DNA of 33,932 nucleotides from a bacterium (GTDB lineage Bacteria; Gemmatimonadota; Glassbacteria; GWA2-58-10), in assembly GCA_021372515.1 (NCBI GenBank), contig JAJFUG010000031.1, positions 1-33,932 of the forward strand. Direction: 5' to 3'. Positions 2,133-14,586 of the stretch are shown here, one piece after another. The stretch's first letter is position 1. Each line of letters opens with the position of its first letter. The translations under genes and the position numbers were made by a program. The notes under the pieces are model-generated. The model made no database searches and was not told where the DNA came from. It was given only the letters and a program-made list of their open reading frames with translations.

Positions 2133-2448
2133 AACTCGAGACGGATTTATATTGAATCAATAATAGCAATGATCACTATCCGAATCATCGCCTTGATAAT
2201 GGAATTTTGCACCGAACACCGAGGCGTATATATTCAACTTTCTAATTGCTTCCAGCCTTTCCTCTCAGGTATCGAATTCTCCCGCCTCTTGTATTTTGTA
2301 GTAAGACACGTCCCGCTCCACAAAACCCTGGCCCGCCGGGTGCGGGCGGATTATTATTGAAGCCTGTGCGCAACAGGGATCAATCCGCAACGCCGCGGTT
2401 TCGCAGCTATTCCATCCATGAATGCCGTACCTGCACCCCGGGGGCCGC
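2133..2448. other. Intergenic gap, no clear gene
   Basis: This 316-base stretch is AT-richer than its surroundings in its first half. Open frames here are short and have no ribosome-binding site or recognisable protein features. A small GC-rich hairpin (CCCGCC / GGGCGG type) lies near 2331-2348. I see no convincing promoter for the downstream gene. Confidence 0.5.
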
Positions 2449-3531
2449 ATGTCCAGACAGAGTGTTGTCAGATGTCAAGCAGGCTCTTTCGCAATCCTCG
2501 CCGCCGTGGCCTTGTTCGCCTGCGGCCCGAAAAAGGAGGTCAGTCCGATGGCGCCTGCCTACAGCGCGCGCGTGGAAACCGACTCGGCCAGCGGCCAGCC
2601 GGTGGTGGTGCTCGAACGCACGGGAGGGGAGCACCCGATGAGTGTCCGTGTCGCCCCGCAGTCGGGCGCGAACCTGTTCAGCCTGACCTATGACGGCAAG
2701 GAACTGCTGTACTCCGACCCCGACCTGAGCAAGCTGCCGGGCTACCATTTCGGCACGCCGGTGCTGTATCCCGCCCCCAACCGGGTGGCCAAGGGCGTTT
2801 TCAGCTTCGAGGGCCGCACTTTCGACTGGGGAGTCAACGAGAAAGACCGTTTCCTGCACGCCCTGGTGCACTCGGTGCCCTGGGAGTACGAGCCGCCCAC
2901 GGCCGCGGCTGACAAGGCCGAGCTTCTCACCTGGCTGGACTTTGCCCCCGGCACGCCCCTGTACGAGAAATTCGGTTTCAACCACCGCCTGAACCTGCGT
3001 TTCAGCCTGGATTCGCTGGGGGTGAAAGTCGCCTACGAGGTGGTGAACCGCGACTCGCTCACCATCCCGTTCGGCTTTGCCATCCACCCGTATTTCAAGT
3101 TCATCGACGACCGCAACGACATCTTCCTCTGCGTGCCGGCCAAGGCCCACATGCAGGCGGTCGACCTGATGCCCACCGGCGTGCTGGACTCCTTAGACGG
3201 CAGCCAGTACGACCTTCGCGCCCCCACCTCGGTGGGGCCGCTGGTGCTGGATGAGGTCTACTACGGGATGGAGCCGGACAAACCGGCCTATATCGAGTAC
3301 CGCGACAGCGGCCTCAAGCTCACCCTGCACAGCTCGCCCGATTTCACCCACATGGTGGTCTACGCCCAGCCGCAGAACCAGTTTGTCTGCGTGGAGAACC
3401 AGACCTGCTCGACCGACGCGCACAATCTGTACGCCCGTGGCCTGCAGGATGTGGCCAACCTTCTGTTCGCCAAGCCCGGCGAGACCGTGGGCGGCTGGGT
3501 GCGGTTCCAGATCGAGCCGCTGGCCCGCTGA
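2449..3531 (+). CDS. Aldose 1-epimerase-like lipoprotein
   Basis: The product resembles aldose 1-epimerases (mutarotases), which interconvert alpha and beta anomers of sugars. I place the start at ATG 2449 rather than 2422 because the nine extra residues precede a good lipoprotein signal whose lipobox is LFAC; the mature protein would then be about 340 residues, the usual size. Family marks are the FGTPVLYPAPNR region, HALVHSVPWE, the catalytic-type HPYF and a VENQTCSTDAHN motif near the C-terminus carrying the expected acidic residue. Export as a lipoprotein is unusual for GalM but common among homologues in polysaccharide-degrading bacteria. A strong terminator follows 35 bases after the stop, so it is the last gene of its transcript. 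Exact sugar substrate unknown. Confidence 0.85.
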   Translation: MSRQSVVRCQAGSFAILAAVALFACGPKKEVSPMAPAYSARVETDSASGQPVVVLERTGGEHPMSVRVAPQSGANLFSLTYDGKELLYSDPDLSKLPGYHFGTPVLYPAPNRVAKGVFSFEGRTFDWGVNEKDRFLHALVHSVPWEYEPPTAAADKAELLTWLDFAPGTPLYEKFGFNHRLNLRFSLDSLGVKVAYEVVNRDSLTIPFGFAIHPYFKFIDDRNDIFLCVPAKAHMQAVDLMPTGVLDSLDGSQYDLRAPTSVGPLVLDEVYYGMEPDKPAYIEYRDSGLKLTLHSSPDFTHMVVYAQPQNQFVCVENQTCSTDAHNLYARGLQDVANLLFAKPGETVGGWVRFQIEPLAR

Positions 3532-3566
3532 AAACGACCGACTGAGGATGCAGGATATTTGCCGCG

Positions 3567-3596
3567 AGAGGGCCGTGCTAACGGCCCTCTCTTTTT
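3567..3596 (+). terminator. Intrinsic terminator after the epimerase gene
   Basis: Perfect 10-bp stem AGAGGGCCGT / ACGGCCCTCT with a GCTA loop, followed by CTTTTT. It separates the epimerase transcript from the EF-G promoter just downstream. Confidence 0.9.
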
Positions 3597-3618
3597 AGGC
3601 CCTAATCGCCGCGTTTTC

Positions 3619-3647
3619 TTGACACTAAGCTGGACTTATTTTATATA
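3619..3647 (+). promoter_or_regulatory. Sigma-70 type promoter for the EF-G paralogue
   Basis: TTGACA at 3619-3624, a 17-bp spacer and TATATA at 3642-3647. The start codon lies at 3725, leaving a leader of roughly 70 bases. This is one of the best promoter matches in the window. Confidence 0.75.
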
Positions 3648-3724
3648 CAAAGCTTCTGAATTCTAACCGTGGACACTTGACGAGGTATTGCCATCAGGAC
3701 TATTTCACCCGGGGAGTGCGATCC

Positions 3725-5362
3725 ATGAAAAACTACGAGAGCAAGGACATACGTAATGTAGCTGTACTCGGTCACGGGAGCTGCGGCAAGACATCCCTCA
3801 CCGGGGCGCTCTGTTTCGCCTCGGGCAGCTCCAAAAGGCTCGGTAGCGTGGATGAGGGCAACAGCCTGACCGATTTCAGCGAAGATGAAATCGAGCGCAA
3901 GATTTCAATCAACCTGTCCGTGGCTTTCGCCGAGTGGAACAAGGCCAAGATAAACCTGATCGACACCCCGGGTTACCTGGATTTCATCGGCGACGCCTAT
4001 GCCTCGGTCCGGGCCGCCGACTGCGCGCTGATCGTGATTCACGCGGTCAGCGGCGTGGAAATAGGCACCGAGATGATGGTCCGCTTGGCCGCCGGCCGCA
4101 AGATGCCCACCGCGGTGTTTATCAACATGATAGACAAGGAACACGCCGATTACGAGAAGGTGTTCAACCAGATACGGGAGAGCTTCGAGGGCCATTTCGT
4201 GCCGCTGACCATCCCGATGGGCCTGGGCGACCAGTTCCACGGCGTGGTGGATGTGGTGCGCCGCAAGGCCTGCCCGGCGGAGGCCGGCACGCAGAGGGGC
4301 GAGTTCAAGACTCAGGATGTGCCCGCAGATATGGCGGATGAGGTGGAGGCCGCCTACAAGGAATTCATCGAGAGCGTGGCCGAGCTGGATGAGTCCCTGA
4401 TGGAGAAGTATTTCGCCGAGGAGCCACTGAGCGATGCCGAGATTTTCGCCGCACTGCGCAAGGGGGTGGCCGAGCGCTCGATCATCCCGGTGTTCTGCGG
4501 CTCGGCGATCAAGACTATCGGCGTGCGCCAGCTTCTGGATGGCCTGGACGAGATCATGCCCGACCCGACCATGATGCCGCCGCGCCCGGCGCACAAAGCC
4601 GAGGGTGGCCAGGAGGTGCAGATCGAGCTGAAATCCGGCGATCCGGCCTGCGCCCTGGTCTTCAAGACCATCTCCGAATCGCACGTGGGCGAGATGAGCT
4701 ATTTCCGCCTGCTTTCCGGTACGATCAAGACCGGTGACGAACTGATAAACTCCAACCAGAACAACCCCGAACGTCTGGGTCACCTCAGCATTTCACTGGG
4801 CCGCGAGCGGATCGAGGTTGAGCAGCTCTGCGCCGGCGATATCGGCGTGGTGGCCAAGCTCAAGTCCACCCATACCGGCAACACCCTGGCCGCCAAGTCG
4901 CGCCTGGTCAAGCTGGCCGACATCGAGTTCCCCAAGCCGGTGATGAACGTGGCGATCGAGCCGAAAATTCGGGGCGAGGAGGAGAAAATCGCCTCCGGCC
5001 TGCGTAAGCTGCAGGAGGAGGACCTCACTCTGCACAGCCATTTCGACCCGAGCCTGAAGCAGATGATTGTCTCCGGCATGGGCGAGTTGCACCTGGATGT
5101 GGTCCTGTCCAAGCTGAAGCGCAAGTTCAATGTCGAGGGCGAGTACGTCAAGCCGCGCATCCCGTACCGCGAGACAATCCGCAAGAAAGCCCAGGGCCAG
5201 GGCAAGTTCAAGAAACAGTCGGGCGGCCGCGGCCAGTACGGCGATTGCTGGGTCCGTCTGATCCCCCTGGAGAAGGGCGCAGGGGTCGAGTTCGAGGACT
5301 GCATTGTGGGCGGCGTGATCCCGGGCAAGTTCGTGCCCTCGGTGGAAAAGGGCGTGCGCTAG
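3725..5362 (+). CDS. fusA: EF-G paralogue, N-terminal part up to an in-frame TAG
   Basis: Translational GTPase of the elongation factor G family, the EF-G-like paralogue group rather than canonical EF-G (switch region reads EIERKISI instead of ERGITI). ATG 3725 is chosen because GGGGAG lies 8 bases upstream; the TTG at 3677 has no such site. Seen motifs: P-loop GHGSCGKT (residues 16-23), DTPG (80-83), NMID (134-137, where most EF-G have NKxD) and SAIK (260-263), then domains II, III and the start of domain IV (SGGRGQYGDCW). The frame hits TAG at codon 546, exactly where relatives have a Glu in the VEKGVRE helix; one base change from GAG explains it. The same frame continues at once with the missing part, so this is a full-length gene (696 codons) broken by one stop: nonsense mutation, sequence error or readthrough. 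Confidence 0.85.
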   Translation: MKNYESKDIRNVAVLGHGSCGKTSLTGALCFASGSSKRLGSVDEGNSLTDFSEDEIERKISINLSVAFAEWNKAKINLIDTPGYLDFIGDAYASVRAADCALIVIHAVSGVEIGTEMMVRLAAGRKMPTAVFINMIDKEHADYEKVFNQIRESFEGHFVPLTIPMGLGDQFHGVVDVVRRKACPAEAGTQRGEFKTQDVPADMADEVEAAYKEFIESVAELDESLMEKYFAEEPLSDAEIFAALRKGVAERSIIPVFCGSAIKTIGVRQLLDGLDEIMPDPTMMPPRPAHKAEGGQEVQIELKSGDPACALVFKTISESHVGEMSYFRLLSGTIKTGDELINSNQNNPERLGHLSISLGRERIEVEQLCAGDIGVVAKLKSTHTGNTLAAKSRLVKLADIEFPKPVMNVAIEPKIRGEEEKIASGLRKLQEEDLTLHSHFDPSLKQMIVSGMGELHLDVVLSKLKRKFNVEGEYVKPRIPYRETIRKKAQGQGKFKKQSGGRGQYGDCWVRLIPLEKGAGVEFEDCIVGGVIPGKFVPSVEKGVR

Positions 5363-5377
5363 GCGGCGAGCAAGGGC

Positions 5378-5815
5378 GTGCTGGCCGGCTGCCAGGTGGT
5401 GGATTTCAGGGCCGAGTGCTATGACGGCAGCTACCACACGGTGGACAGCTCCGATATCGCGTTCCAGATTGCCGGCAGCATGGCGTTCCAGAAAGTGGTG
5501 ATGGACGCCGACCCGGTGCTGCTCGAACCGATCGTCAATGTCGAGGTGCTGGTGCCCGAGGATTACATGGGCGATGTTATCGGCGACCTCAACTCGCGGC
5601 GCGGTCGGATCATGGGCATGACCAGCGAGGGCAGTTTCCAGAAAGTGGCGGCCAAGGTGCCCCTGGCCGAGATGTACAAGTACTCCACCTCACTGCGTTC
5701 GATGACCCAGGGGCGCGGCATGTTCACCAGCGAGCTTTCGCATTACGAGGAAACCCCGCGCGAGGTGATGGAAAAAGTGGTGGAGGAGAACCGCAAGGAG
5801 AAAGAGCAGGACTGA
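5378..5815 (+). CDS. fusA: EF-G paralogue, C-terminal part (rest of domain IV and domain V)
   Basis: Continues the frame of the preceding fragment without any shift. It carries the end of domain IV ([19 protein letters not shown], then [15 protein letters not shown]) and the whole of domain V ([31 protein letters not shown]), ending TGA at 5813-5815. Together the two parts give ~696 residues, the normal EF-G length. Domain V follows the family closely with no other lesion, so the break looks recent or artificial. A GTG at 5378 could in principle start a separate product, but there is no clear ribosome-binding site and the fragment would lack part of a fold, so I regard it as one gene with the upstream part. 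Confidence 0.8.
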
Positions 5816-5844
5816 CCCGGCGGCCGGGCGTTTGAAAAGCATGG

Positions 5845-5880
5845 GCCCCCGCGAGCGGGAAGCGAGCGGGGGCTTTTTTT
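5845..5880 (+). terminator. Intrinsic terminator after the EF-G paralogue
   Basis: Stem GCCCCCGC (5845-5852) / GCGGGGGC (5866-5873) followed by seven T. Lies 30 bases after the TGA. Confidence 0.9.
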
Positions 5881-5894
5881 GCCCCAAATAATAA

Positions 5895-6011
5895 AGGCTT
5901 TGGGATCTGCAAATCCCAAAGCCTGGCTGCACAATCAGCTTCCGCGAAGAAGCCTGCCACCCGGGGCGGGTAACAGAGAAATGATTTGTGCAGTTACAGC
6001 CCTTGCGGGCT
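5895..6011 (-). ncRNA. Candidate structured small RNA ending in a minus-strand terminator
   Basis: Read on the minus strand, three structural blocks follow one another: a hairpin AGCCC/GGGCT (6011-5998); a longer stem pairing 5982-5993 with 5927-5937 (CTGCACAAATCA / TGATTGTGCAG, one bulge) that encloses a GCTTC/GAAGC hairpin (5938-5953); and a perfect 12-bp hairpin (5895-5906 with 5913-5924, 6-base loop) followed by TTTATTATTT. The last looks like an intrinsic terminator. No protein frame is convincing here. The region between EF-G and parA is otherwise empty, so a standalone RNA is plausible; it matches no RNA class I can name. The same hairpins could also form in plus-strand RNA ahead of parA. 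Confidence 0.35.
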
Positions 6012-6173
6012 AATAATCTAATCGGCAAAATGAGAGAGAACTTTAAAAAATGGCATTTCTGTAGTCCGGAAAAATAGACCCCTCTTCGGCAGGCCCGCTA
6101 AATAAGGGCTTGCCAAGCGCGCCGGCCTGTGGTAAGCTCCTGCTTGAACCGGACGCACCGCCAGGGAGCCGTA

Positions 6174-6914
6174 TTGAAAAAGATTGCCATTCTCTCAATA
6201 AAAGGTGGGGTGGGCAAGACCACCACCACGATCAACCTGGGCCATGGGCTGTCGCTCAACGGCCAGCGGGTGATCCTGATCGACTGCGACCCGCAGAACA
6301 ACCTGGCCGAAATTTTCGACCTGGAGCTGGGTGGCGGCGTGAGTGACCTTCTGCTGGGACGCCGGGCCTGGATGACCGAGGTGCGGCGCAACCTGTTCGT
6401 TATCCCCTCGGGCGGACGGGCCATGATGGACGCCGAGTGGAAAGTCGCCGCGGCCCAGAACCGCGAGCGGGTCCTGAACGACAGCCTGGAGGACCTGGCC
6501 AACTGCGACTACGTGATCTGCGATTGCTCCAGCGCGATGAGCCTGGTCAACCTCAATGTCCTGCACTTTGTGGACTATGTCATCATCCCGGTGGGGATGG
6601 ACTACTTTTCGATCAGCGGGCTGAAAAACACATTCGAGATGGTGCGGGAGGTCTGCCGCGCCGACCCCCGTCACCAGCTCCGCCTGCTCGGCATCCTGGC
6701 CACGCAGTTCGACCTGCGCACGCGGGTCAGCCGGGAGATTTACGGCGTGCTGGGCCGCCTGTTCCCTAACGAGCTGTTCAAGACCGTGATCAACGTGAAC
6801 ACCCGCCTGAGGGAGTCCCCGGCCTACGGCAAGACCATTTTCGAGTATGACATCGCCTCCAGCGGAGCGCGTGACTATTTCAAGCTTACCTCGGAGATTC
6901 TGGCGCATGAATGA
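6174..6914 (+). CDS. ParA/Soj-family ATPase
   Basis: Cytoplasmic deviant-Walker ATPase of the ParA/MinD group, which bind ATP, dimerise and position DNA or protein cargo. The N-terminus reads KKIAILSIKGGVGKTTTTIN with the signature KGGVGKTT; LIDCDPQNNL is the Walker A' region, and YVICDCSSAMS is the Walker B strand with an atypical CDCSS where most have DxPP. I choose TTG 6174 because AGGGAG lies 5 bases upstream and the family motif begins right after it; a GTG at 6129 would add 15 residues without family support. No ParB or DNA-binding partner is adjacent. The stop overlaps the thiD start by 8 bases, so the two are translationally coupled. The gene stands apart from any visible partition cassette, so its cargo is unknown. 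Confidence 0.8.
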   Translation: MKKIAILSIKGGVGKTTTTINLGHGLSLNGQRVILIDCDPQNNLAEIFDLELGGGVSDLLLGRRAWMTEVRRNLFVIPSGGRAMMDAEWKVAAAQNRERVLNDSLEDLANCDYVICDCSSAMSLVNLNVLHFVDYVIIPVGMDYFSISGLKNTFEMVREVCRADPRHQLRLLGILATQFDLRTRVSREIYGVLGRLFPNELFKTVINVNTRLRESPAYGKTIFEYDIASSGARDYFKLTSEILAHE

Positions 6915-7722
6915 GATAAAGTGTCCGCCGCGCGCGCTCACGATCGCAGGCAGCGATTCGGGCGGCGGCGCCGGCATCCAGACCGACCTGAAAACATTCC
7001 AGGCGTTCGGTTGTTTCGGCATGAGCGCGATCACCGCTCTCACGGCCCAGAACTCGCGGGGCGTTCAGGGGGTGTTCAAGGTGCCGGCCGAGTTTGTCAC
7101 GGCCCAGATCGACTCCGTGCTGGGGGATATCGGCGCGCAGGCGGTCAAATGCGGGATGTTAGCCGACGGCGACATAATCGAGGCCGTGGCCGCGGCCCTG
7201 GAGCGCCACGGCACGCCGCCCCTGGTGCTGGACACGGTTCTGGTGGCCAAAAGCGGCGACCCGCTGCTCAAGGACTGGGCCGTTGAGAGCATGGTCGAAC
7301 TTCTGTTCCCGCTGGCGGTGCTGATTACGCCCAACCTGCCCGAGGCGGAGCGTCTGACCGGCCTGAGCGTGAAAGACCGCGCCGGCATGCTGGGCGCGGT
7401 GCAAAAGCTGCAAGCCCTCGGGGCCCCGGCTGTGCTTCTCAAGGGCGGCCACCTGAGCGGAGACCGTTTGCTGGATCTCCTTCTGCTGCCCGATGGCCGT
7501 GCGGTTGAGTACGAGAACGAGCGGGTGGATACGCCCCACACCCACGGCACGGGCTGCACTCTCTCGGCCGCCGTGGCCGCGGGCCTGGCCCGCGGCCTGC
7601 CGCTGGAGCGCGCGGTGAGCGCGGCCCGGGCCTATGTGCTGCGCGGTATCCGCCTGGCCCACCCGACCGGCGCAGGCTACGGCACCCTGGGCCACGCCCC
7701 GTTCGACCCGGACACGGACTGA
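6907..7722 (+). CDS. thiD: Hydroxymethylpyrimidine/phosphomethylpyrimidine kinase
   Basis: ThiD phosphorylates HMP and HMP-P in the thiamine pathway. The 271-residue product opens with TIAGSDSGGGAGIQTD, the ribokinase-fold signature for this family, continues with DTVLVAKSGDPLL (family: DPVMVAKSG), TPNLPEAERLTG and PHTHGTGCTLSAA with the anion-hole Gly and the reactive Cys. Start ATG 6907 lies inside the end of the parA-like gene, overlapping by 8 bases, with GGAG 12 bases upstream. No TPP riboswitch sequence is visible upstream, and no other thiamine gene is in the window, so it may serve salvage. An 8-bp inverted repeat (7746-7753 with 7770-7777) follows the stop but lacks a T run. Confidence 0.92.
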   Translation: MNEIKCPPRALTIAGSDSGGGAGIQTDLKTFQAFGCFGMSAITALTAQNSRGVQGVFKVPAEFVTAQIDSVLGDIGAQAVKCGMLADGDIIEAVAAALERHGTPPLVLDTVLVAKSGDPLLKDWAVESMVELLFPLAVLITPNLPEAERLTGLSVKDRAGMLGAVQKLQALGAPAVLLKGGHLSGDRLLDLLLLPDGRAVEYENERVDTPHTHGTGCTLSAAVAAGLARGLPLERAVSAARAYVLRGIRLAHPTGAGYGTLGHAPFDPDTD

Positions 7723-7828: not shown

Positions 7829-9472
7829 ATGTATCTCAAAAGTATGATATTCACCGCTTTGCTTTGCGTTTCAGGGCTTTTCTGCGCAGCCACCCTGCCT
7901 GCAGCCGAAAGCCCGACCGCGCTCTGGCCGGTGGTGGAGCACGAGCTACATTATGACGCCGCGCTGGAGAACCCGTTCCGGGAGGTCCGGGCGACCGCAG
8001 TCTACTCCGGTCCCGCGGGTACGGAGAAAGTGAAAGTCGAGGGGTTCTACGCCGGGGGCGACACCTGGCGTTTCCGTTTTGTCACCCGCAACGCCGGGGC
8101 CTGGAAAGCCGAGCTGAGCCTTGTCCGGGACGGCCGCACGGTGGCTTCGCAGGCAGTTGAGTTCACGGTGGAGGAGGTGGCGCCACGCGGCTTTTTCCGG
8201 GTCAGCCGGACCAACTGCTACCGTTTCGAGTTCGAGAACGGCGAGCCGTTCTATCCGGTCGGCATCCAGCCCTGCGGCCACGACAGCGCCGGGCTGGATG
8301 GCCCCCCGGCGGGCCAGGGCCAGTGGCGCTCGGTGGGCATCGACACTTTTCTCGCCACCCACCGCGGGGCGGAGAACCTGTTCCGCATCCAGCTCGGTCA
8401 GGGCTCCACGGCCGGCTGCGCCTGGCAGGTGATGGCCGACTCGCTGCACGACGACCGCTACGACCTGGCCGAGCTGGACAAGCTGGACAACTTGTGCCGC
8501 CTGCTGCGGGCCGATGACTTCTCCGTGATGCTGATCATGTTCCAGGACATGAGCCTCTGGGGCACGGCCCCCAACGCTTTCGGCGACAACCGTGACCTGG
8601 CCGGCTGGAAGAACCCCGCCGACACGCGGCACGCCGCCGCGGTGGAGCAGTACCTGCGCTACATGGTGGCCAGGTTCGGGGCCTATGTGGATGTCTGGGA
8701 GCTGTTCAACGAGGACGCCTGGACCCCCAACGAGCGACTGGCCCAGATGGCGGCCTGCGTGCGCGGCTGCGACCCCTACGGCCACCCGGTCACCACCACC
8801 TACGAGCGCCCGGACCAGCCCTGGTGCGACCTGGTCACGGTCCACGAGTACATGTGGCTGCCGCCCAACGAGATCGACCAGCACCTGACCCACGAGTTCG
8901 CGCGTTTCAAGAGTTTCGGCAAGCCGGTGCTCTATACCGAGTTCGGCAACCAGGGCGAGTTGTCGAATCGCGACCCGGTCAAGTGGCGCATCGGGGTCTG
9001 GACCGCGTTCATGAACGAGAGCTCGCTGCTGTTCTGGAGCATGGGCGGAGTTATCACCCCGGACCGGGACAAGCCGGTGCGGGGGAACTCCAACGCCTAC
9101 CTGGGGCCCGAGGCGCGGCAGTATTTCCGTGTTTTCCACCGTCTGACCGACAGTGTCCCGCTGTCCCTGCGTCCGGTGATGACCGGTTTCGGGCAGAAAG
9201 GGGATGAAGTCCGGCGCTACGGCCTTTCCAACGGCGCTCTGAGCCTGGTCTACCTCCAGCACTACACCAGCCATGCCAGCGCGGCCAAGGCCGAGGTGTA
9301 TGTCTGGACCGGCTCGGGAAAGTTCAGCCTGCAGTGGATCGACCCGGCCACGGGCGAGACAGTCGCCCGGGAGGAGGCCCAGACCCCGGGCCAGGTGTTG
9401 ATTGTCAACTCGCCCGAGTTCAAGGTGGACCTGCTGGCGCGGATCGAGCGGCTGGGGGAGGCGACACAGTAG
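7829..9472 (+). CDS. Secreted clan GH-A-like glycoside hydrolase with N-terminal DUF5060-like domain
   Basis: Start ATG 7829 follows GGGA 8 bases upstream and opens a Sec signal peptide with a probable AxA site near residue 26; the mature protein is ~520 residues. Residues ~30-115 form a beta domain like DUF5060, found before cellulase-type barrels. The (beta/alpha)8 part carries VDVWELFNE (putative acid/base E295) and KPVLYTEFG (putative nucleophile E371), the retaining clan GH-A pattern; the C-terminal ~90 residues look like a small beta domain. Related proteins act on beta-linked glycans, but the substrate cannot be read from sequence. It stands alone with no polysaccharide-utilisation partner beside it and ends at TAG. 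Palindromic repeats separate it from the convergent reductase gene. Confidence 0.8.
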   Translation: MYLKSMIFTALLCVSGLFCAATLPAAESPTALWPVVEHELHYDAALENPFREVRATAVYSGPAGTEKVKVEGFYAGGDTWRFRFVTRNAGAWKAELSLVRDGRTVASQAVEFTVEEVAPRGFFRVSRTNCYRFEFENGEPFYPVGIQPCGHDSAGLDGPPAGQGQWRSVGIDTFLATHRGAENLFRIQLGQGSTAGCAWQVMADSLHDDRYDLAELDKLDNLCRLLRADDFSVMLIMFQDMSLWGTAPNAFGDNRDLAGWKNPADTRHAAAVEQYLRYMVARFGAYVDVWELFNEDAWTPNERLAQMAACVRGCDPYGHPVTTTYERPDQPWCDLVTVHEYMWLPPNEIDQHLTHEFARFKSFGKPVLYTEFGNQGELSNRDPVKWRIGVWTAFMNESSLLFWSMGGVITPDRDKPVRGNSNAYLGPEARQYFRVFHRLTDSVPLSLRPVMTGFGQKGDEVRRYGLSNGALSLVYLQHYTSHASAAKAEVYVWTGSGKFSLQWIDPATGETVAREEAQTPGQVLIVNSPEFKVDLLARIERLGEATQ

Positions 9473-12561: not shown

Positions 12562-14322
12562 CTACTCGATCACGCTTTCCCAGCCCATCTTGGAAAGGAT
12601 ACGGTACAGGGTGAGCGCCATCACCGCCGAAACTCCCAGACATATCACCCCCATGCCGGTTTCCTGCAGCAGCAGCTTGCCGATCCCGAACAGCACCCCA
12701 TAGATCATCAGCGCGGCGGCGATCCAGCAGACAAACAACGCCGGGTAGCCGCGGTCGCCCTTGACCTCGGGCATCTCGGACGCCACTTTGCGCCAGCCCG
12801 GTCCGCCCGGGTGCACCTGGCGGTAGAAAGCGTGCAGGTGCTCTTTGGTCACCGGGCTGGTCAGGAACGTGACAGTGAGCCAGACTATTGTCGTGAACGC
12901 CACGATGTAGTACAGCGTGCTGGGAAAAGCTATGTCTGTGAACAGTTTCATGTAGCCGTAGGCCAGGAACGGGGCGATCATGCCCGATATCTCGCTCCAG
13001 GCGTTGATCCGCCACCAGTACCAGCGCAGGATGAAAATCAGCCCCACGCCCGCGCCGCACTCGATCACGAACTGCCAGGCCGAGGTGATGGTCTGCAGGC
13101 CCATGGTGATCAGCAGCGATACCACCATCATCAGCACCGTGGTCCAACGGCTGATCATGACATAGTGTTTCTGGTCGGCCTTGCGGCGCACGAAACGGGT
13201 GTAGAAATCGTTGACCAGGAAACTGGTGCCCAGGTTGAGCTGGGTGGCGATGGTCGACATGTAGGCGGCGAAGAAAGCCGCGATCAGCAGGCCCTTGAGG
13301 CCCACCGGCAGGTAGTCGCGGATGATCATCACGAACCCGTCCCCGCGCTGATCCACCGGCAGGTTGGGGTAGAGGATCAGCGAGGCCAGGGCCACCAGGA
13401 TCCAGGGCCAGGGACGGATGCAGAAATGTCCGATGGTGAACCAGAGCGTGGCCAGCAGGCTGTGCTTCTCGTCCTTGGCGCTCATCATGCGCTGGGCGAT
13501 GTAGCCGCCGCCGCCCGGCTCGGCCCCCGGATACCAGCAGGCCCACCACTGCACGCCCACATAGGCCAAGAGCGCGGGCAGGGTCAGCTTGAGCACCCCC
13601 GTGGCAGTGCCCAGGTCGGACCCGCCGGCCACCGAGGGCAGGAAACGCAGGGTCTCGGGGCTCAGCTGGGACTTGATCCCGGCAATCCCGCCCACCTGGG
13701 GCAGCTTGACCGCCACCACGGCCAGCACTATGCAGCCGGTCATGGCGGTCAGGAAATGCAGCACGTCCACCACCGCCGAGCCCATCAAGCCGCTGGCCGC
13801 GGTGTACAGCATCACGATCAACATGCAGCAGGTGAGCACGATCCAGGGGTTTTCCCAGCCCATCGTTATGTGCAGGATCTTGAACATCGCCAGGTTGACC
13901 CAGGCGATCACCACGCTGTTGATGAACAGGCCCAGGGAGATGGCGCGGAAGCCGCGCAGGAACGCCGCCGGCTTGCCGCTGTAGCGCAGCTCGATGAACT
14001 CCACCTCGGTCATGATCCCGGAGCGGCGCCACAGGCGGCTGAAAAAGAACACCGTGAGCACGCAGCCCAGAAGGAAATTCCACCAGAACCAGTTGCCCGC
14101 CAGACCGTACTTGCCCACCAGCTCGGTCACGGCCAGCGGTGTGTCGGCGGCGAACGTGGTGGCGATCATCGACGTGCCTGCGATGTACCAGGGCAGGTTC
14201 CGCCCGCCCAGGAAAAAGTCCTGCGTGCTCCGCCCGGCCCGACGCGCAAAGTAGAGCGCCACCACCAGAACCAGAACAAAGTAGCCGAAGAAAATCAGCC
14301 AGTCGAGCATGTTCATGGACAT
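12562..14322 (-). CDS. Sodium:solute symporter (SSS family)
   Basis: Inner-membrane secondary transporter of the SSS family, which couple Na+ entry to uptake of sugars, amino acids or organic acids. I use ATG 14322, 7 bases after AGGGGA, giving 586 residues; the frame runs further upstream without a better site. The first helix (MLDWLIFFGYFVLVLVVALY) is followed by the family mark GRSTQDFFLGGRNLPWY and TSMIATTFAADTP, then about 12-14 membrane segments and NLGTSFLVNDFYTRF, typical of the core fold. The protein ends with a long tail including two more hydrophobic segments. A promoter (TTGTCA, 17, TTAAAT) lies upstream. It belongs to the SGLT-like clade with LacY-unrelated fold; substrate not identifiable, a sugar being likely from the surroundings. 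Confidence 0.88.
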   Translation of the reverse strand: MSMNMLDWLIFFGYFVLVLVVALYFARRAGRSTQDFFLGGRNLPWYIAGTSMIATTFAADTPLAVTELVGKYGLAGNWFWWNFLLGCVLTVFFFSRLWRRSGIMTEVEFIELRYSGKPAAFLRGFRAISLGLFINSVVIAWVNLAMFKILHITMGWENPWIVLTCCMLIVMLYTAASGLMGSAVVDVLHFLTAMTGCIVLAVVAVKLPQVGGIAGIKSQLSPETLRFLPSVAGGSDLGTATGVLKLTLPALLAYVGVQWWACWYPGAEPGGGGYIAQRMMSAKDEKHSLLATLWFTIGHFCIRPWPWILVALASLILYPNLPVDQRGDGFVMIIRDYLPVGLKGLLIAAFFAAYMSTIATQLNLGTSFLVNDFYTRFVRRKADQKHYVMISRWTTVLMMVVSLLITMGLQTITSAWQFVIECGAGVGLIFILRWYWWRINAWSEISGMIAPFLAYGYMKLFTDIAFPSTLYYIVAFTTIVWLTVTFLTSPVTKEHLHAFYRQVHPGGPGWRKVASEMPEVKGDRGYPALFVCWIAAALMIYGVLFGIGKLLLQETGMGVICLGVSAVMALTLYRILSKMGWESVIE

Positions 14323-14369
14323 CGGCGGTTCCCCTGTTGATGTTACGAGTGTACTGCAATGGAAGGATG

Positions 14370-14398
14370 ATTTAAGCGAGGTGACAATGCGGTGACAA
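14370..14398 (-). promoter_or_regulatory. Sigma-70 type promoter for the symporter gene
   Basis: On the minus strand TTGTCA (14398-14393), 17-bp spacer, TTAAAT (14375-14370); the start codon is about 48 bases downstream. Confidence 0.55.
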
Positions 14399-14440
14399 AA
14401 TAAACGCGGAAGCCCGATTATGCCACTTTTTAATTCGCCC

Positions 14441-14470
14441 TTGCCGTTGCGGGCGCGAAAACCATAGATT
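14441..14470 (+). promoter_or_regulatory. Possible promoter for the endonuclease-IV-like gene
   Basis: TTGCCG (14441-14446), 18-bp spacer, TAGATT (14465-14470). Weaker than other sites in the window. Confidence 0.35.
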
Positions 14471-14586
14471 GAGCGAGAGACTGATCGATAATTTCCGGCA
14501 GTGTCGGCCGGAGAGTGCAGGGGCCGGCCTCGGCCGCAGGATGGCAAATCAAATCAAAGAATAACGGTAAATGGGAGGACGGACAG

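Follow-up and report, generated by a model that had tools for sequence, protein, structure and literature searches.

An isolated in-frame TAG in an EFG II-type elongation factor gene of a bacterial draft genome, probably a recent nonsense mutation

Paralogues of elongation factor G (EF-G) that belong to the EFG II subfamily always occur together with a further EF-G, in most cases EFG I, and six type I subfamily-specific residues are known for them, namely Gly, Leu, Ser, Thr, Gly and Lys at sites 19, 28, 64, 316, 360 and 379 of T. thermophilus EF-G (PMC3150367). In Bacteroides thetaiotaomicron, EF-G2 has been described as an alternative elongation factor that is not essential (PMC10294740). In-frame stops in constrained bacterial genes have been reported to be widespread and have partly been interpreted as read-through, and such read-through of isolated stops has been argued to be frequent, mainly from stops common to related species (Belinky et al. 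2021, PMC7918605). Here, we present an EFG II gene that resembles the latter cases in having one stop, no other decay and constraint on both sides, and that shares with amber recoding (pyrrolysine, suppressor tRNAs, TAG reassignment) the presence of TAG within an open frame.

The window, that is, the whole stretch of 33,932 nucleotides that was analysed, is an entire contig (C31) of a 99.5% complete draft genome of 4.87 Mb in 222 contigs. The whole gene covers positions 3725-5815 of the + strand, with 696 codons from the ATG at 3725 to the TGA, and is preceded by GGGGAG at a distance suitable for a ribosome-binding site. A promoter scan upstream of the gene found no consensus promoter. The features of the gene are as follows.

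3725 to 5359, + strand: EFG II-type EF-G paralogue, codons 1-545 (GTPase domain, domains II and III and the first part of domain IV), from Pfam and NCBIfam matches, six EFG II-specific residues and the Shine-Dalgarno-like GGGGAG
5360 to 5362, + strand: in-frame TAG, codon 546 (Glu in 31 of 33 homologues), from frame reading and homologue alignment
5363 to 5812, + strand: same-frame continuation with the remainder of domain IV (tip loop DGSYH) and domain V, from the second half of Pfam EFG_IV, EFG_C and 69-77% identity to family orthologues
5813 to 5815, + strand: TGA, the ancestral gene end, from frame reading

In agreement with the original prediction, the TAG is codon 546 of a 696-codon EF-G-like frame, in frame with the ATG at 3725 and the only stop before the TGA at 5813-5815. 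Read through with X at residue 546, the protein includes all EF-G domains, and its residues 1-694 match the profile NF009381 (elongation factor G subfamily) with 919 bits. Scored separately, the portion ahead of the TAG reaches 671 bits and the portion following it 229 bits, on contiguous stretches of the profile. The open frame past the TAG is more than chance, since both sides together match one full-length EF-G at this score, and since a codon-usage scan of 14 other 20-kb stretches of the genome (280 kb outside the window, 314 kb together with it) revealed no second frame clearly coding through a stop. The high-scoring read-through candidates elsewhere in this sample proved to be either adjacent genes that happen to share a frame or antisense shadows.

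All six EFG II-specific residues are present in the protein (G16, L25, S61, T315, G359 and K378 in the 1dar alignment), and the G2 motif RGITI is absent, with RKISI at residues 58-62 in its place. Based on these two features of its sequence, the paralogue belongs to EFG II, members of which are often annotated as EF-G2 or FusA2. A second, intact EF-G, which the original prediction had proposed to look for, is encoded on contig C92 (13425-15476) as an open frame of 697 codons; this canonical EF-G is 39% identical to the EFG II paralogue, carries the motifs AHIDAGKT and DTPGHVDF and adjoins an EF-Tu fragment. With the specific residues, RKISI for RGITI and a canonical EF-G alongside, the locus thus agrees with the described subfamily (PMC3150367), from which it differs only in the in-frame TAG.

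In the family to which the genome belongs, the gene order is aldose epimerase, EFG II, ParA-like ATPase and ThiD (phosphomethylpyrimidine kinase), which corresponds to window positions 2422-7722, and the syntenic neighbours of the TAG-bearing gene are intact. Four of the five other family genomes have an intact EFG II orthologue (67-69% identity) at the same position, flanked by the aldose epimerase gene and by the ParA-like ATPase and ThiD genes, and in the fifth genome, which is 88% complete, no EFG II orthologue was seen. As judged by this shared gene order, the TAG-bearing gene is the positional orthologue of the intact genes of the four family members. The EFG II neighbourhood, which is separate from the canonical fusA-tuf genes, is stable in the family.

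The position of the stop is strongly conserved among relatives. Among 33 aligned homologues, column 546 holds Glu in 31 (GAG in 23 and GAA in 8), Asp in one (GAC) and Ser in one (AGT), which makes the residue acidic in 32, and a stop in none, as anticipated by the original prediction, which had named Glu as the residue of relatives and GAG as a codon one base away. Because Glu is so prevalent, GAG is the likely parent codon, and one G-to-T change would explain the TAG. The Ser codon at this otherwise acidic column is found in one EFG II gene (L132, G088:C8). Further, among about 90 EFG II-type genes in the matches listed from 121 genomes of the phylum, an internal stop is present only in the gene described here; other stops flagged in this search (TAA in G034, TGA in G012 and TAG in G108) were dismissed, as reading of the DNA places none of them inside the aligned protein.

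Residue 546 aligns with Glu548 of T. thermophilus EF-G in domain IV, and termination at the TAG removes 151 residues, including domain V and the latter half of domain IV, in which the tip loop DGSYH lies. This corroborates the earlier reading that a stop here falls in domain IV and costs the ribosome-contacting end and domain V, with the Pfam matches EFG_IV at residues 477-595 and EFG_C at 598-684. His571 of the tip loop corresponds by alignment to T. thermophilus His573, which is important for translocation. A product of 545 residues is not expected to work and would most likely be inactive.

Both sides of the TAG had been described as well conserved, which holds for the joint NF009381 match and also for the tail, which is 69-77% identical to the four family orthologues, themselves 69-83% identical to each other in this part. 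Out of 153 columns that are invariant in 11 other EFG II proteins, the present protein departs at three, two of them before residue 546 and the third being residue 546 itself, and none after it. Relative-rate counts of the tail are similar to those of its sisters, with no slackening, and GC by codon position is equal in body and tail, so that invariant columns, relative rates, codon-position GC and reading frame gave no sign of further damage or relaxed constraint in the gene. With regard to pseudogene formation, the premature stop deletes conserved domains, and the absence of further decay would be expected only if the event were very young or the stop an error. Given this undecayed tail, the sequence suggests that the mutation is either very young or absent from the organism altogether.

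The explanation that we favour, as the somewhat more probable one, is a very recent single-base nonsense substitution in a non-essential EFG II paralogue. Most simply, GAG would have changed to TAG by a single base, translation would end by RF1 after codon 545, and the product would lack the tip loop of domain IV around His571 and domain V, while the canonical EF-G encoded elsewhere would sustain translocation and recycling. The loss could be fixed in the strain, or the consensus could have captured one variant of the population. We infer that the organism truly carries this base and that the mutation is recent. Dispensable genes commonly acquire single nonsense mutations, and this, together with the lack of any other such lesion in the assembly sample, is why we favour a real mutation over an error, although the preference is a modest one. 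Loss of EFG II could be tolerable given the intact canonical EF-G and the reportedly non-essential EF-G2 of Bacteroides (PMC10294740). Against a nonsense mutation, the species is represented by a single genome; moreover, nearly all relatives retain EFG II, and losing it is presumably a disadvantage over longer times.

The main competing explanation, which we regard as possible and, by a modest margin, less probable, is a consensus error or a minority variant in a metagenome-type draft, in which case the organism would carry an intact gene with a sense codon at this place. The fragmentation of the genome into 222 contigs is in line with such an error, and so is an EFG II gene that is fully constrained at all other places and has no second lesion. 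The undecayed tail fits a loss too recent for other decay, and a one-base assembly error predicts the same absence of a second lesion; indeed, the sequence expected from a real mutation is identical to that expected from a one-base error in the consensus. However, no other in-frame stop was found in the 280 kb sampled outside the window or inside the 54 ABC-ATPase matches of the genome, which indicates that the assembly is not generally rich in errors, and the intact syntenic neighbours point in the same direction. If a nonsense mutation is the correct reading, or an assembly error, the case is one more ordinary event in a dispensable paralogue and not a new reading of the genetic code. A caution also follows for annotation, as pipelines will show two fragments or a pseudogene where near relatives have a whole gene.

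Recoding of the TAG is not supported. In contrast to amber recoding systems, the genome has RF1 (contig C151), PylS was not found in it, none of the 41 tRNA genes found has a CUA anticodon, TAG ends normal genes and the case is single; pyrrolysine and TAG reassignment were therefore rejected. The tRNA search had been proposed by the original prediction; the 41 genes lack Phe, Ile and Pro(TGG) and are therefore an incomplete set, although a missed suppressor tRNA is unlikely. Two tRNA-Arg(TCT) copies with identical scores lie at the ends of two contigs (C16:4-77, L045, and C101:65-138, L046) and probably represent a single gene at which the assembly failed to join these contigs.

General reassignment had been judged unlikely from three genes with TAG as a normal stop, and this judgement stands, with one case in 314 kb and with TAG ending 29 of 155 long ORFs in this sample, as an approximate, greedy ORF count. 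The individual examples proved to be of unequal value: the symporter gene at 12562-14547 is firm, as its TAG follows the same residue as the TAA of its orthologue; the gene that stops at 9472 has a DUF5060 domain, and no gene continues in its frame beyond the stop; and the ORF ending at 1149 is weak, with no family match. Among the options originally listed, a recent nonsense mutation and a sequence error gained support, and suppression did not. A programmed frameshift was rejected, with no slippery heptamer around CGC TAG G, and is not needed, because the conserved protein stays in the same frame. Within the bin, only the canonical EF-G and further GTPases matched, and neither a second intact copy nor a strain variant of EFG II was found.

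Enough full-length EF-G2 might be made through leaky read-through or through a natural nonsense suppressor, with the stop acting as an expression damper, and we consider this improbable. The persisting constraint on the tail speaks for such read-through, as do the in-frame stops reported to be widespread in constrained genes, which have in part been interpreted in this way (PMC7918605). That study, however, leaned on stops in at least two species, and its argument is not directly applicable to a TAG private to one genome and found in no relative. Read-through is further opposed by the tRNA, PylS and RF1 results above and by the RNA fold of the 90 nt after the stop, which was no better than shuffles (z -0.28), so that a stimulatory structure was also rejected. 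A literature search on read-through of premature stops in metagenomic data found no match. An isolated TAG should be called recoding only where a suppressor, a shared stop or reads support it. An extended version, in which termination efficiency at its own stop would meter the factor and thereby couple its synthesis, by autoregulation, to how the translation machinery is faring, appears highly improbable. Should read-through be demonstrated, the control of a translation factor through the efficiency of termination would merit study. Finally, a split gene, with the tail translated separately from a start past the TAG and the two pieces cooperating, is very doubtful. An ORF of 145 codons from GTG 5378, the first such start, speaks for it, but this start falls within a conserved stretch of domain IV, a well-placed Shine-Dalgarno sequence is missing from all in-frame starts past the TAG, and no relative is split.

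The switch II motif of the paralogue is DTPGYLDF, with Tyr instead of the canonical His at codon 84 (window 3974-3976). Tyr is also present in most EFG II relatives for which the motif was read, with Ser in one (G018), and as this position is linked to GTP hydrolysis, EFG II paralogues with the altered residue may have a changed GTPase activity.
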